From NCBI GenBank assembly GCA_946186205.1, contig CAMHMH010000002.1, positions 1 to 64,000 on the forward strand: a stretch of 64,000 nucleotides of DNA. Reading direction: 5' to 3'. Position numbers and translations under genes: made by a program. Positions 38,669 to 48,989 of this stretch are shown here, one piece after another. The notes under the pieces are model-generated. The model made no database searches. It saw nothing but the letters and a program-made list of their open reading frames with translations, and was not told where the DNA came from. The first letter of the stretch is position 1; each line of letters begins with the position of its first letter. This stretch comes from an uncultured Fretibacterium sp. (GTDB lineage Bacteria; Synergistota; Synergistia; Synergistales; Aminobacteriaceae).

Positions 38669-39385
38669 CTAGTCTCTTCTCTTCCCGAAAAGTTTTATCA
38701 GGTACAAGAACAGGTTGATGAAGTCCAAGTACAACGCAAGCGCGCCGATCACCGCAACTTTTCCGATTGCCTCATCATCATTCATGCCGGAGCTTTCAGC
38801 GATTGATTTTATTTTCGCAGTGTCGTAAGCAGTCAGGCCCATGAAAATTATGATGCCCATCACGCTTATGACTGTCTCAGCCGTCGACGAACCCAAGAAT
38901 ATATTAATCACCATCGCAATGATGAGTCCCCAGAGTCCCATGTGAAGGAAACTTCCCCATGCCGTAATGTCGCGCTTAGTGTACATAGCATACAGGCTCA
39001 TTGCACTGAACATTCCCGCCGTCGACAAAAACGCCGTGTATACGCTCTCCTGTGTGTAAACGAGAAGTACACATGAAATCGTTATCCCGTTAAGCACACT
39101 GTAGAGTCCGAAAAGCAATAGTGATGTTGAAGCGTCATGTTTCGCAATCGTCGCGCTGAGGTAAAACACGAGTCCTAACTCCGCGATTGCCGCAATGATT
39201 AACGGAGCGCGTGAGCCGTAGAAGAATCGAATCATTGCCGGGCTTGCTACTGTGATCCATGCTGTTAATGATGTGAGGATTAATCCGAGTGCCATATACT
39301 GATAGACTTTGCGGAAAAGTGTATTGACCGACTCAATGCTGCCGACTCCCGCCGCGTATGGCGTATAGCTGTCGTATTGTGCCAT
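38669..39385 (-). CDS. Bax-inhibitor-1 / YccA family membrane protein
   Basis: 238 residues from ATG 39385 (AAAAAGGGAG 8 bases upstream). Seven hydrophobic segments; family motifs are GLILTSLTAWITVASPA, YTKRDITAWGSFLHMGLWGLIIAMVINIFLG and GLTAYDTAKIKSIAES (the TAYDxxxI signature). The C-terminus is LFLYLIKLFGKRRD. Members act as pH-sensitive ion-leak proteins or protease modulators in the inner membrane. The gene is duplicated in tandem: a broken copy lies at 39610-40230. Confidence 0.93.
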   Translation of the reverse strand: MAQYDSYTPYAAGVGSIESVNTLFRKVYQYMALGLILTSLTAWITVASPAMIRFFYGSRAPLIIAAIAELGLVFYLSATIAKHDASTSLLLFGLYSVLNGITISCVLLVYTQESVYTAFLSTAGMFSAMSLYAMYTKRDITAWGSFLHMGLWGLIIAMVINIFLGSSTAETVISVMGIIIFMGLTAYDTAKIKSIAESSGMNDDEAIGKVAVIGALALYLDFINLFLYLIKLFGKRRD

Positions 39386-39475
39386 AATGTAATCTCCCTT
39401 TTTCATGTAAAATATTACGGCCATATTCTAGCAGAGATTATGAAATTCTAATGTGAAAGGTGAAAAATCTCGGCA

Positions 39476-39609: not shown

Positions 39610-40230
39610 TTATGTTCTTGAATTATTCATGTCGGAATCTTCAGCAAGCGATTTTATTTTCGCGGTGTCATACGCCGTCAAGACAGTGAATATTATTATG
39701 CCTATCACACTTATCACAGTTACAGTCGCCGATGACCCCACCAACATGTTAATCACCATCGCGATAATCAGTCCGCAGAGTCCCATAAGCAAGAAACTTC
39801 CCCGTGTCGTAATGTCGCGCTTCGTGTACATAGCATACACGCTCATTGCACCGAACATTCCCGCCGTCGACAAAAACGCCGTGTATACGCTCTCCTGTGT
39901 GTAGACGAGAAGTACACATGAAATCGTTATGCCGTTAAGCACGCTGTAGAGTCCGAAAAGCAATAGTGATGTTGAAGCGTCATGTTTCGCAATCGTCGCG
40001 CTGAGGTAAAACACGAGTCCTAACTCCGCGATTGCCGCAATGATTAACGGAGCGCGTGAGCCGTAGAAGAATCGAATCATTGCCGGGCTTGCTACTGTGA
40101 TCCACGCTGTTATTGACGTGAGGACTAATCCGAGTGTCATTTACTGATAGACTTTGCGGAAGAGTGTATTGACCGACTCAATGCCGCCGACTCCCGCCGC
40201 GTATGGCGTGCAGCTGTCGTACTGTGCCAT
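39610..40230 (-). pseudogene. Broken second copy of the BI-1-like gene
   Basis: Begins MAQYDSCTPYAAGVGGIESVNTLFRKVYQ, then TAA where the intact copy has the Tyr codon of VYQYMALG; the frame resumes MTLGLVLTSITAW and is near-identical to the intact protein for ~165 residues. It ends early at DMNNSRT, so the last transmembrane helix and basic tail are lost. Nonsense mutation plus 3' truncation make it a pseudogene; downstream reinitiation could still yield a partial membrane protein. Confidence 0.85.
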
Positions 40231-44686: not shown

Positions 44687-44729
44687 GATAATTTTCTGCC
44701 TCCTGCTGAAAGTTATAGCTCCGTTTTGA

Positions 44730-44758
44730 GTTTCGGATTTCAGCGCGGAAATTTTTAC
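44730..44758 (-). promoter_or_regulatory. Weak candidate sigma-28 promoter of flagellin
   Basis: On the minus strand TAAA, 16 bases, TCCGAAAC: five of eight positions of the GCCGATAA consensus. It lies ~45 bases before the flagellin start. Only suggestive. Confidence 0.3.
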
Positions 44759-44823
44759 AGCACCTTAATTTTTCGCTGCCTCGTTGTATTATTGCTGCAA
44801 AAATTTCAGGAGGACGAATCATT

Positions 44824-45489
44824 ATGGACGACTTCAAAATTATCGACATGGCCGGGAATCAAGAGACTCAATTCACACATGACACTTTCAGGCGATCAGG
44901 CTTCACCGAGAACGCAAGTCTCACACTCATAACGAACATCACAGAGTCAAACATCAAGGACGCAATCAGAGTCGCAGAGTCAGCAAAGGCATCTGAATCC
45001 GTAACAGCAGGAAGCATATCGGGCAGCATCAATCCGCTGAACCAGAACATGAAGAGGCTCTCAGATATTGCTGACGCTGTAATACTTTCGCCGGGAAAAA
45101 CTGAGGACTCCTCACGCAGAATCATTGAGGCAGTCTCAGACCTCGTAACAAAAACCGGGTTCGTCAATATCGACATTGAAGACGTGAACGAGATACTCAG
45201 GGACGCGGGCACGGTTTATTTCGGAGCAGGAACAGCAGAAGATTCAAGAACAGCCGCAAAGATCGCCTGCGAAATGTGCGGGAATGTCTCAGGCGCAAAA
45301 AGATTCCTCGTGAACATAACAACAGGAACGGAAGTAATGTTAAGAGATATGTCAGACGCGGCAAACGTGATAGAGATGAAAGCAGACCCTGAAGCGCAGG
45401 TGATTTGGGGTCATGTGATGGATGATGATTTAGGCGAGAAAGTGAGAGTGTCAGTTCTCGCGGCCATGAATGACAAAGGGAAATTGTAA
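44824..45489 (+). CDS. Truncated FtsZ-like protein lacking the GTP-binding half
   Basis: 221 residues with AGGAGG 7 bases before the ATG. From about residue 30 it follows FtsZ from strand S4 onward. ASLTLITNITESN takes the place of the GGGTGTG tubulin signature, which is missing. Then come DAVILSP, SDLVTKTGFVNIDIEDVNEILRD (T7-loop region, NxDxxDV), YFGAGTAED, and GAKRFLVNITTGTEVML (FtsZ: GARGVLVNITGG), ending AQVIWGHVMDDDLGEKVRVSVLA. The activating loop domain is thus kept but nucleotide binding is lost. It could bind to a filament of true FtsZ, as an inhibitor does. The next gene starts with a paralogous domain. Division function is unlikely. Confidence 0.78.
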   Translation: MDDFKIIDMAGNQETQFTHDTFRRSGFTENASLTLITNITESNIKDAIRVAESAKASESVTAGSISGSINPLNQNMKRLSDIADAVILSPGKTEDSSRRIIEAVSDLVTKTGFVNIDIEDVNEILRDAGTVYFGAGTAEDSRTAAKIACEMCGNVSGAKRFLVNITTGTEVMLRDMSDAANVIEMKADPEAQVIWGHVMDDDLGEKVRVSVLAAMNDKGKL

Positions 45490-45496
45490 ACTCATC

Positions 45497-48025
45497 ATGA
45501 TAAAAGTAGTTGACATTCTGAAAAATGAAACGCTGAATGACTTTGAGGACTCAGATTTCATTCTCATAACGGGCATAACAGAGTCGAAACTCAATGACGC
45601 AATAACGCTCGCAGAATCAGCGCGGGAGTCAGGAATCATAACAGCAGGAATCCCGGCGGGAAATTATGACGTGAAGAGATTCGCCGATATTGCTGACGCT
45701 GTAATATTCACACGGAATGAAGAAGACATTTCACAGGGAATCGCGGAAGATATTTCAGAGATTGCAGACAACAGCGCAAGAATACTCGCAGGCATTTTCA
45801 GGAACGCGGGAACGGTGCATTACGGTTCAGGAAGCGGCGATGACGTAGATAGCGCAATACGAAAAGCGGCGGAAATGTGCGGAGATATTCACGGCTCAAA
45901 AATGGCACACGTAATAATGTCTGTGCCTCTTGCAGAATACGATCATGAAGCATTTTGGGGGATTGAAGAGAATATACTAGAAGAAATTTGCGGTCATGGC
46001 GTAAAGTCTGTAACTAGATGGGATTCAAACGAGGACGGAAAATTCACGGCAAAAATTTTCGCGCTCATGTATGACGCTGGTTATACGAGCTGGTGCGAAC
46101 TCTTTGCGAACGAAAGCGCAGAGAACATCACGGCCATGATTGAGAACGGACTCGACGGGCGAACAAAAAGACTCGGCACGGAAAAATCATTCTTTGCGGC
46201 CTGCTTGAGATTCGGAACTCCTGAGCTTGTCAGACAATTCATCAGCAAGGGACATAACCCCAAAGAGCTTGAGACTGACGGATATACACCGCTTATGATG
46301 ATTGATTTCAGCAAAGACACCGACAACGCGCACGAAATCCTGAAGTTGCTTCTCGCAAACGGAGCTGACATTAACGCTTCAGCCGACAACGGAATGACTC
46401 CTTTCACGAATGCCGCAAGATGGATATACGCCCGCCCGGATATAGTTCGCACATTCCTTGACGCGGGGGCGAATGTGAACACGGACTTTACTGACGATTG
46501 CGGAATAAAACCCGTTCTTGACATTATGTTTAACTCTGCCGATTCTTTCTTCTCAGAGTCGGAAGAAGTGCGGACATTTCTGCGCGAGGTCCTGCCCATG
46601 ATGATTAACGCCGGGGCAAAAATTAACCCTTCCGAATCTCGTACACTCCGTGAAGTCTTTGACGATGAATATCAAGATTTCCGACGCAACTGGAAGAGTC
46701 TTCTGACTGACCCAGCAAACAAATCTCACGCGCTCCGGCTTTTTTGTGATTCGATTGCGGAATATGACACCGAGACCCTAAGAGGAATCATTGAGCGTAT
46801 CTCCCCCGAAAAAATTGTGCCTGATTACGGCGAATCCCTGTCAGAATTTCTCAGAGTGTCAGCAGGACTCGCATTCAGGATTAACGATTTCCCCGAAGCC
46901 ATGAGCAAACCTTCACCACAACACACTGACATAAAACGCAGGCTCGACAAAGGAGCGGAGATTCTAAGAATACTCAAAGAAGCCGGAATCACATGGCCGT
47001 TAGTCCTCCCTGAAGGTGCCGAATTAACGTATGTCATCAATGAAAACTGGAGTCATCGAAGAGATATTGAGGAAATGAATCCGTTATGCCTCTGTTATTC
47101 GCCCGAAGCCCTGAAGAAAGTTATTGCTTCCGGGAATTATGACACAAACAGCGCGCTTGCTGAAATCGCCTTAAGATGTGATAGCTACTATCAGCCCGGA
47201 GAAATGATGAATGTGCTGCTCAATAACGGCGCGGATATTCACAGCCTCCGTGATACGCAGTTCGGGGAATTTCTTTCGCACAGGGGAGAACGTATCATGC
47301 TTGATAACTTTCAGCAGGCAAAATTCATAGCCGAATTTTTATGGAAGCATGATCCCGCAGACATAACCAACGTCAGAAGCATTCAGCATTATGACGGATG
47401 GGAGGAATATTACGGAGGGCCGCTGAGCTGTCATATGCTGAGTCATCTTTGGGAGATGATAGAGTCGGGAACAGACAACGGCGGAACATGGGTAAGATTC
47501 TGGGATATGATAATGTTATTGTCGGCTTGCTGGGGAACTGTGAATGACATTGAGGACTCAATCAATCACGGCGGGAATGTCAACTATAAGACGTGGCTCG
47601 GTTATTCGCCGTTAATGTACGCTGTATTCTTCAACAAAGCAGAGGCCGTAAAATTCCTCGTCAAGAACGGAGCAGACATTAACACCCGCAACATTCACAA
47701 TCAGAATGCCGCAATGCTCGCTGTTACGTCAGACTATCACGAATGGGACTCAAATGTGATTGGAGTCCTCGCTGAATTTGGAGCTGATATTCACGATGGC
47801 TTGATGAGTCTTGCTGTTGACGCGGGGAATGTTAAAGCGGTGAAAGCTCTTCTCTCATTGGGAGTAAAGCTGACGGACAAAAACGCGGTGAATGACTCAG
47901 AACCTGTAACGGGAAATGAAAAGCCCTGCCCGAAATGCGGAAGGATTTTAGAGCGCAGAACTTCTTACTGCCCTTCATGCGGGTATGTTCTGCCGGTCAG
48001 TGAAAGGTATGGACTCAATGCCTAA
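45497..48025 (+). CDS. FtsZ-like / ankyrin-repeat / zinc-ribbon fusion protein
   Basis: 842 residues from ATG 45497; a longer frame from 45470 overlaps the previous gene. Residues ~15-200 are an FtsZ-like domain paralogous to the preceding protein: DFILITGITESKLNDA, DIADAVIFTR, RNAGTVHYGSGSGDD, KAAEMCG. Here the last strands are more diverged. Ankyrin-type repeats follow at about 230-340 (ETDGYTPLMMID, LLLANGADINASADNGMTPF, FLDAGANVNT). A middle of ~300 residues has weak repeats, and clear repeats resume at about 690-800 (WLGYSPLMYAVFFNKAEAVKFLVKNGADIN). The C-terminus is a zinc ribbon, CPKC and CPSC (about 811-829). No enzymatic motif. It may be a scaffold or sensor that recognises a protein ligand. 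Confidence 0.75.
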   Translation: MIKVVDILKNETLNDFEDSDFILITGITESKLNDAITLAESARESGIITAGIPAGNYDVKRFADIADAVIFTRNEEDISQGIAEDISEIADNSARILAGIFRNAGTVHYGSGSGDDVDSAIRKAAEMCGDIHGSKMAHVIMSVPLAEYDHEAFWGIEENILEEICGHGVKSVTRWDSNEDGKFTAKIFALMYDAGYTSWCELFANESAENITAMIENGLDGRTKRLGTEKSFFAACLRFGTPELVRQFISKGHNPKELETDGYTPLMMIDFSKDTDNAHEILKLLLANGADINASADNGMTPFTNAARWIYARPDIVRTFLDAGANVNTDFTDDCGIKPVLDIMFNSADSFFSESEEVRTFLREVLPMMINAGAKINPSESRTLREVFDDEYQDFRRNWKSLLTDPANKSHALRLFCDSIAEYDTETLRGIIERISPEKIVPDYGESLSEFLRVSAGLAFRINDFPEAMSKPSPQHTDIKRRLDKGAEILRILKEAGITWPLVLPEGAELTYVINENWSHRRDIEEMNPLCLCYSPEALKKVIASGNYDTNSALAEIALRCDSYYQPGEMMNVLLNNGADIHSLRDTQFGEFLSHRGERIMLDNFQQAKFIAEFLWKHDPADITNVRSIQHYDGWEEYYGGPLSCHMLSHLWEMIESGTDNGGTWVRFWDMIMLLSACWGTVNDIEDSINHGGNVNYKTWLGYSPLMYAVFFNKAEAVKFLVKNGADINTRNIHNQNAAMLAVTSDYHEWDSNVIGVLAEFGADIHDGLMSLAVDAGNVKAVKALLSLGVKLTDKNAVNDSEPVTGNEKPCPKCGRILERRTSYCPSCGYVLPVSERYGLNA

Positions 48026-48989
48026 AGATATGACCTCAGTGCGTCATGACAGATTGTCGAGGGTGATGGCGTTCCTTCAGTCGAAAGTGAGAGCGACTCA
48101 TGACGAAATATTCTCAGCTGGCGAATACAGAAGCAACAGGACGCTTCAGAATGATCTGTATTATCTCAGGGGTATATACGGAGCTGATATACGCTACGAC
48201 ATTCACAGCAAGTTATACGTAATGGAGAGTGCCGGAATATTTCACTTGAACCTGCGAATAACCGAGAGCGAAATTACAGCTTTGAGCGCGGGCTTGAACA
48301 TGGCCGTACATTTCCTGCCACACCTGAAAGACTCTGCACGCTCACTCTTTGAGAAGCTCGGAAACTATATGCCCGGTGAAATTCTGTCGCTAGGTTCAGA
48401 GATAACGCGATCGACTCTCAATGCTATACCAGTCGCGGAAGTTGACGCAAAAATTTTCGGGACTCTCGTTGAGGCAAAACGCTCGCAGAAAGCCGTGAAC
48501 ATTCTTTACTCATCGCCGGGGAAAATGCCAAAGCACTGGACGTTATCACCGTATGATTTTTACTTCAGGGGCAATGCGTGGTACATGGCCTCGTACAATC
48601 ACAAGCATGACACTCTCAGCATTCACAGAATCAGCCGGATAATAAGCGCGTCAATAAGTGATGAAGGGTATGTGAAGCCTGAAGACGGAGGATTCACGGA
48701 GGACTATACATTGTCGGCGTGGCATGTTATCCCGGGACATGAAAAAATTCCCGTGAAGGTCAGAATCTCAGAGCCATTAGCGCAGACGTTCCGCGAGGTG
48801 AAGTGGCATCCGTCGCAGAAGGTTGAAGAGTGCGAAGAAGGAGGCGTGATATTGTCAGCGGAAGTTCCGAATCTCTATGAGTTCGCGAGGTGGGTAATGT
48901 CTGGCGCGCCTCATGTGATCGTGATTGAGCCTGAAGAGCTGAAAGAGATCGTGAAGGGATTCGCTGAGGAAATATTGAACGGTTTATGA
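48018..48989 (+). CDS. WYL-domain transcriptional regulator
   Basis: 323 residues; ATG 48018 overlaps the previous stop by 8 bases and follows AAAGG by about 10. N-terminal winged-helix DNA-binding domain (RLSRVMAFLQSKVRATHDEI, RTLQNDLYYLR), then the WYL domain with HWTLSPYDFYFRGNAWYMASYN and HRISRI, the positions that bind nucleotide or nucleic-acid ligands. A C-terminal WCX-like extension ends the chain. WYL regulators often control defence loci and keep them silent until infection. In this operon it may act on the FtsZ-like and nuclease genes. Confidence 0.88.
   Translation: MPKDMTSVRHDRLSRVMAFLQSKVRATHDEIFSAGEYRSNRTLQNDLYYLRGIYGADIRYDIHSKLYVMESAGIFHLNLRITESEITALSAGLNMAVHFLPHLKDSARSLFEKLGNYMPGEILSLGSEITRSTLNAIPVAEVDAKIFGTLVEAKRSQKAVNILYSSPGKMPKHWTLSPYDFYFRGNAWYMASYNHKHDTLSIHRISRIISASISDEGYVKPEDGGFTEDYTLSAWHVIPGHEKIPVKVRISEPLAQTFREVKWHPSQKVEECEEGGVILSAEVPNLYEFARWVMSGAPHVIVIEPEELKEIVKGFAEEILNGL

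Follow-up and report, generated by a model that had tools for sequence, protein, structure and literature searches.

Among the described relatives of the cell-division GTPase FtsZ (PF00091 and PF12327), FtsZl1 and FtsZl2 are divergent proteins that combine an FtsZ domain with added regions; both keep the N-terminal nucleotide-binding loops (T1, T4), and FtsZl1 is found in multi-gene loci (Makarova and Koonin 2010, PMC2875224). Concerning regulators, the BrxR/CapW type is defined by a winged HTH, a WYL and a WCX domain and represses defence operons via inverted repeats (PMC9122601, PMC9122588); 48% of the BrxR-type WYL regulators co-localise with defence systems (PMC9122601). CapRel-Ebc, a toxin-antitoxin fusion working with the real FtsZ, is activated only by the complex of Gp0.4 with FtsZ, and Gp0.4 binds FtsZ, being modelled on its T7-loop surface (PMC13423816).

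The window, i.e. the whole analysed stretch of 64,000 nucleotides from an uncultured Fretibacterium sp. (contig CAMHMH010000002.1), contains two tandem genes, P0002 and P0001 (Table 1), whose products have helix H7 and the fold of the C-terminal domain in common with FtsZ, in P0002 together with the T7 loop and its triad. They differ from FtsZ in that the nucleotide-binding half, the GGGTGTG loop and the tail peptide are missing, and in that P0001 is fused to ankyrin repeats; the window genome additionally possesses an intact FtsZ (434 aa, G000:C7). The T1 and T4 loops of FtsZl1 and FtsZl2 are absent, such that the family considered here, called psi-FtsZ in the following, retains the opposite half. 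No such proteins were found described in a search of largely open-access literature (FtsZ with ankyrin, FtsZ with defence, truncated FtsZ).

Table 1. Features of the psi-FtsZ locus (positions refer to the window; residues to the respective protein).
Feature	Position	Strand	Evidence
Operon upstream region with Shine-Dalgarno AGGAGGA	44687..44823	+	Common to five genomes
psi-FtsZ A (P0002), 221 aa	44824..45489	+	FtsZ_C 3.8e-14; model; best PDB match FtsZ 1rq2
T7 (synergy) loop of P0002, GFVNIDIEDV, N-D-D triad	45157..45186	+	Alignment to own FtsZ (L062)
psi-FtsZ B (P0001), 842 aa, with ankyrin repeats and putative zinc ribbon	45497..48025	+	Open ORF, Pfam, model
Head of P0001 (half-FtsZ without T7 loop), residues 1-192	45497..46072	+	Alignment; Foldseek 8gzx
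Ankyrin block 1 of P0001, about residues 195-335	46079..46501	+	Ank_2 234-329; model
Ankyrin block 2 of P0001, about residues 665-795	47489..47881	+	Ank 702-732, Ank_5 689-739; model
Putative zinc ribbon of P0001, CPKC-x10-CPSC, residues 808-832	47918..47992	+	Zn_ribbon_3; cysteines kept in relatives
WYL-WCX transcriptional regulator	48018..48989	+	WYL 4.1e-10, WCX 7.1e-16; start overlaps P0001 end by 8 bp
Mrr-type restriction-endonuclease-like gene, 361 aa	49018..50103	+	Mrr_cat 1.9e-8; 28 bp past regulator; module membership inferred

The initial annotation had described P0001 as an FtsZ-like domain joined to two ankyrin blocks and a terminal zinc ribbon, and this architecture is borne out by Pfam, alignment and predicted fold, with the zinc ribbon as a probable element. 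The profile search finds ankyrin repeats in both blocks (Ank_2 at 4.9e-24 in three stretches, best at 234-329) and FtsZ_C in P0002; the zinc ribbon scores 23.4 bits, just under the Pfam cut-off of 27, with CPKC...CPSC present and the four cysteines conserved in the alignment with L039, L040, and L041. P0001 has no FtsZ_C match of its own in the Pfam search, and its FtsZ nature follows from the alignment to P0002 and relatives and from the predicted fold (E. coli FtsZ 8gzx, E 6.1e-8, weaker than the FtsZ match of P0002). Its model, built from six sequences (mean pLDDT 75.4, pTM 0.46), is usable for the individual domains and not for their relative placement. Within it the ankyrin regions are well predicted (pLDDT mostly about 80-93): at 230-340 and 690-800, the regions proposed beforehand as decisive for an ankyrin fold, helices are confidently paired, and ankyrin/DARPin chains rank first in Foldseek. 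The model of P0002 (pLDDT 80.7, pTM 0.81) matches FtsZ 1rq2 best (E 2.6e-17, TM-score 0.76 on the query), and FtsZ chains are the sole matches of profile A4 to solved structures. As a structural claim, the assignment of P0002 and P0001 as half-FtsZ proteins is secure or at least well supported.

Compared to the intact FtsZ of the same genome (L062:1449-2753), both proteins begin about 100 residues late, and the nucleotide-binding loops are absent; the T4 loop GGGTGTG occurs in 0 of 16 psi-FtsZ rows. P0002 retains helix H7, the T7 loop, and the C-terminal domain and stops just past the latter, whereas the own FtsZ runs about 100 residues further, the conserved C-terminal tail peptide thus being absent. 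By its sequence, psi-FtsZ is not an FtsZ in the sense of a GTPase, the defining pocket having been looked for and found absent; as the nucleotide-binding half (T1-T4) is missing, the head of P0001 and P0002 would not be expected to polymerise like FtsZ. A loss of the N-terminal half upstream by frameshift was considered and rejected, since only 137 bp of intergenic sequence separate P0002 from the divergent flagellin gene and this layout recurs in five genomes.

The T7 motif N-x-D-x-x-D is complete in P0002 (N115, D117, D120) and is aligned with N214, D216, and D219 of the own FtsZ, which in established numbering are N207, D209, and D212 of E. coli; in P0001 the loop is missing. When the positions invariant in 36 true FtsZ rows were scored in the psi-FtsZ rows, 208 of 1456 cells were retained in the N-terminal half, and 38 of 48 in the T7 triad versus 280 of 624 at the other positions from H7 to the C-terminal domain. 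In the 12 rows with a T7 loop the triad even provides the only fully conserved columns (3 of 192), a figure biased by the choice of loop-bearing rows, such that the unselected counts are the fair ones. By these counts no feature of the family is better retained than the N-D-D triad. The loop is gone in P0001, L039 copy b, L041, and L228 P0003. A T7-bearing copy is situated directly upstream of a T7-less one in the window genome (G000) and in G010; in G029 the T7-bearing copy is frameshifted, and in G062 it lies on a separate contig. The single-copy loci of G004, G034, G035, and G011 retain the loop. In L043, L044, L045, and L161 a degenerate N-terminus (e.g., LGVGxxGC) without GGGTGTG still exists; that these are intermediate stages, an ancestral FtsZ paralogue having shed its nucleotide-binding half stepwise, is well supported.

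Concerning the relationship of the two genes, a 19-mer is found exactly twice in the window, once at 45065 and once at 45687, where shuffles predict 0 occurrences. The peptide it specifies, DIADAVI, is a conserved motif with residues invariant in both alignment A1 and alignment A5, and the flanking DNA of the two genes is 68% identical over 177 bp. The tandem paralogy derived earlier from this shared sequence stands; its dating as recent does not. P0001 and P0002 are 37.8% identical with a dS of about 1.2, whereas P0001 is 74% identical to its counterpart in the related species G010 and 38% to P0002. In the tree, P0002 clusters with L039_a and L038, its counterparts, and P0001 pairs with L039_b (100/100), nested in a branch with L041, L040, and L042. 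A recent duplication is ruled out by tree and identities; because both copies occur in the same order in G010 and P0001 is nearer to its counterpart there, the duplication is older than the split of G000 and G010. A single monophyletic origin of all half-FtsZ proteins is not supported in this tree, with L046 and L047 apart and the short family described below as a branch of its own.

For the whole proteins dN/dS lies at 0.30-0.44. Between P0001 and its counterpart it amounts to 0.44, the head reaching 0.57, ankyrin block 1 0.28, and the zinc ribbon (87.5% identity) 0.26; the WYL gene shows 0.09. By these ratios the evolution of P0001 is fast but constrained, the heads being its fastest-evolving part. 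In L040 and L041 the ankyrin blocks are 93-96% identical and the heads 53%, which suggests a putative exchange of heads between tandem copies. The zinc ribbon accompanies ankyrin-bearing heads in four of P0001 and its relatives.

The family, a set of spare FtsZ copies in a group of gut bacteria that lack the GTP-binding half and keep the docking half, was seen in one Synergistaceae genus only and is patchy among genomes of that genus. At E 1e-12, 12 of 43 same-genus genomes contain relatives of P0001, which in part are ankyrin-only. A scan of 84,980 species with two peptide patterns detected the complete ankyrin form in MAGs of Synergistaceae/Synergistales alone, its remaining matches being ankyrin-only at E 1e-12 or weaker, and in an order-wide search outside the genus the matches listed have the lengths of ordinary FtsZ. 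A viral origin was rejected: viral contigs yielded no A1 relative, and phage and plasmid records no P0002 match covering 80%, the named ones among the matches listed being FtsZ. Contig C10 (G000:C10:1-68876; L059-L061) repeats C2:1-68876 including the window with 99.7-100% identity over the parts compared (C10:60001-68876 excepted); as a second genomic copy it was discarded and treated as an assembly artefact, and gene copy counts in the C2:1-68876 region of this assembly are doubled by this probably redundant contig.

Several further observations concern FtsZ-related genes. A short family of about 140 aa (L049, L050, L051, L052, L053, L054, L055, L056, L057) consists of FtsZ H7, T7 loop, and C-terminal domain only; its triad is retained in 26 of 27 cells, as against 186 of 351 elsewhere. 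Its neighbour in several genomes is a CstA-like or an IlvC gene, sometimes with an AAA protein alongside. In G061 (L224:519-1412 and 1443-2720) ftsZ occurs in tandem, the upstream gene being shorter and divergent, with GGSTGSG replacing GGGTGTG. Elsewhere in the window, two adjacent genes of one membrane-protein family (38669-39424 and 39610-40140) share 87% DNA identity over about 750 bp, the second one appearing shortened, and positions 1-60 form a head-to-tail GGTTCGT repeat.

The initial annotation had overlooked the genomic context: the genes form an operon with a WYL regulator, and relatives show a link to PD-(D/E)XK nucleases. The WYL protein of the window carries WYL and WCX domains without a reported HTH match, and CapW (7tb6) is its sole solved-structure match (E 0.0026). 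With the BrxR/CapW type it shares these two domains and the presence of nucleases and candidate defence genes nearby; here, however, the regulator is placed at the end of a psi-FtsZ/ankyrin operon, and the genes it would regulate belong to no known type of defence. Close homologues of it (68-100% identity) occur in ten genomes, and 10 of the 11 stand immediately behind a psi-FtsZ/ankyrin or a PDDEXK_4 gene, the eleventh (G029) lying at a contig end; in G016 the FtsZ head of the locus is beyond the contig end. In at least seven genomes a psi-FtsZ gene (or its PD-(D/E)XK partner) precedes such a close WYL homologue, usually with PD-(D/E)XK-type nucleases nearby. The order psiFtsZ-Ank, PDDEXK_4, WYL is found in G010, in G004 and, spanning a contig break, in G029; psiFtsZ-Ank, WYL, PDDEXK_4 in G035 and G062, where the PDDEXK_4 match is weaker (2e-6 and 4e-6); and psiFtsZ, PDDEXK_4, WYL in G011. 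In G034:C91 (L048) a single protein consists of psiFtsZ fused to PDDEXK_4 and is followed by WYL and Mrr_cat. As G010, G004, and G029 are syntenic, these amount to about four independent arrangements, and the gene pairings, several loci being of common descent, are not all independent.

PDDEXK_4 is rare, with 10 genes in 43 genomes, 7 of which are situated within psi-FtsZ/WYL loci; the window genome has none. The partners tested (G004, G011, and the G034 fusion) match the PADLOC candidate PDC-S26 (PDDEXK_4, PF14281) at E 5e-58. Mrr_cat genes lie downstream of the WYL gene in L039 and L048 as well, and Mrr_cat, NucS_C, UDG-like, and YhgA-like genes are present in the same loci. PADLOC reports single candidates only (PDC-S26 in relatives, the ankyrin PDC-M72A on the repeats, WYL) and no match to a described system. 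The operon upstream region of five genomes is aligned with a mean column identity of 74% (A6); an operator search in that of the window found no inverted repeat of at least 8. In G003, P0002 is present without P0001 and WYL. With HemB, GreA, flagellin, and efflux genes around the locus, the window is otherwise no defence island.

A more distant WYL group (L202, L203, L204, L205, L206; 45-54% identical) is divergently oriented to genes for large ankyrin or BspA-type LRR proteins, in two cases followed by a gene of roughly 240 aa with a weak peptidase M28 match; this hints at a tendency of the regulator family to work with repeat proteins. Immediately downstream of the WYL gene, three genomes code for a 458-467 aa protein (L230:16-1392, L210:2748-4142, L232:479-1882); these proteins seem to be related to one another, and Pfam gave no match for the two that were scanned. 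Beside half-FtsZ or WYL loci, a two-ATPase AAA protein recurs whose similarity to IetA (PADLOC) is weak (L043:8268-10562, L053:3778-5925, L045:12256-14460, L232:1948-4221).

The reading to which we tentatively give first place, while granting it somewhat less than even chances, is that the locus is a WYL-controlled, nuclease-linked conflict module, most likely anti-phage, in which the half-FtsZ would act as bait or adaptor. It is supported by the half-FtsZ fold with the pocket lost and the T7 docking loop kept, and by the WYL linkage, the concentration of PDDEXK_4 in these loci, the fusion, the PDC-S26 match, and the varied nucleases; the strongest outside support comes from the co-localisation of BrxR-type WYL regulators with defence systems and from the CapRel-Ebc precedent. 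A likely role in protein recognition remains of the earlier proposal of a recognition scaffold on a tubulin-like base; the tubulin-like base does not, the GTP-binding half being absent. We infer contact with FtsZ or an FtsZ inhibitor, signalling by the ankyrins, nuclease action, and repression by the WYL protein. The half-FtsZ would display the T7-loop face of FtsZ, and a phage division inhibitor that seizes this face, in the manner of Gp0.4, SulA, and MciZ with genuine FtsZ, or alternatively FtsZ itself once displaced, would bind to it. The ankyrin part would read the bound state and recruit or release a PD-(D/E)XK nuclease, i.e., PDDEXK_4 in relatives and possibly the Mrr-type gene in the window, and the WYL protein would hold the operon low until DNA damage or infection. 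In this full form, as an immune module with a built-in host-protein decoy whose FtsZ half is seized by phage inhibitors and wired through ankyrins to nucleases, the proposal is unlikely. It would resemble CapRel-Ebc in sensing phage attack at the T7-loop face of FtsZ; it differs in that a copy of FtsZ would sit in the locus itself, and there is no homology.

Several points count against a defence function. As the window genome lacks PDDEXK_4, the Mrr-type gene, a putative member of the module, would have to supply the nuclease; the window is otherwise not a defence island; the own head of P0001 has no T7 loop; and G003 has P0002 without its partners. To our knowledge, a phage inhibitor of FtsZ has not been described for these bacteria. 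Furthermore, the exact retention of catalytic residues agrees with docking into the GTP site of real FtsZ no less than with a bait for phage proteins. This leads to the main rival, a brake on division, which differs from the defence reading in what the T7 face meets and which we consider somewhat unlikely. The half-FtsZ would be a filament cap whose T7 loop enters the GTP site of the last FtsZ subunit; it could complete GTP hydrolysis and would give the next subunit no site, such that filaments stop. Induction through WYL on DNA damage would then make a SulA-like checkpoint, with ankyrins setting location or partner and nucleases acting in repair. The retention of the triad while the pocket is gone argues for such a cap, as do the pairing of a T7-less ankyrin copy with a T7-bearing one in G000 and G010, the loop in the four single-copy loci, and the triad of the unlinked family of about 140 aa; WYL proteins such as PafBC are described to respond to DNA damage (PMC11804915). 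A cap would, however, not account for the fusion to a nuclease, for the diverse restriction-type nucleases of the loci, or for the large, changing ankyrin arrays.

The T7-less ankyrin proteins (P0001, L039 copy b, L041, L228 P0003) and the fast evolution of the heads relative to ankyrin block 1 are in turn what would be expected of a plain scaffold, i.e., a stable alpha/beta oligomerisation or folding module without contact to FtsZ, the ankyrins doing all the recognition; this is improbable, as a neutral scaffold gives P0002-type copies no reason to retain the T7 triad better than other positions. Domain loss, the frameshifted copy in G029, and fast evolution would also be compatible with functionless leftovers of an FtsZ duplication, which the long open frames of the long members, the whole-protein dN/dS, the conserved operon and upstream region, and the constrained zinc ribbon make very improbable.

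psi-FtsZ is a real and unusual family: the FtsZ relatives found in the literature keep the nucleotide-binding half, whereas psi-FtsZ drops this half and keeps the T7 docking face, constituting a natural separation of the two interfaces of FtsZ. Taken at the level of genes and domains, the locus suggests a module of a new kind, probably in phage defence or division control. If the half-FtsZ is a bait, it would represent a host-protein decoy in bacterial immunity, and the sensing of attack on cell division would be directly testable; if it is a cap, evolution would have produced a terminator of FtsZ chains that could serve division research as a tool.
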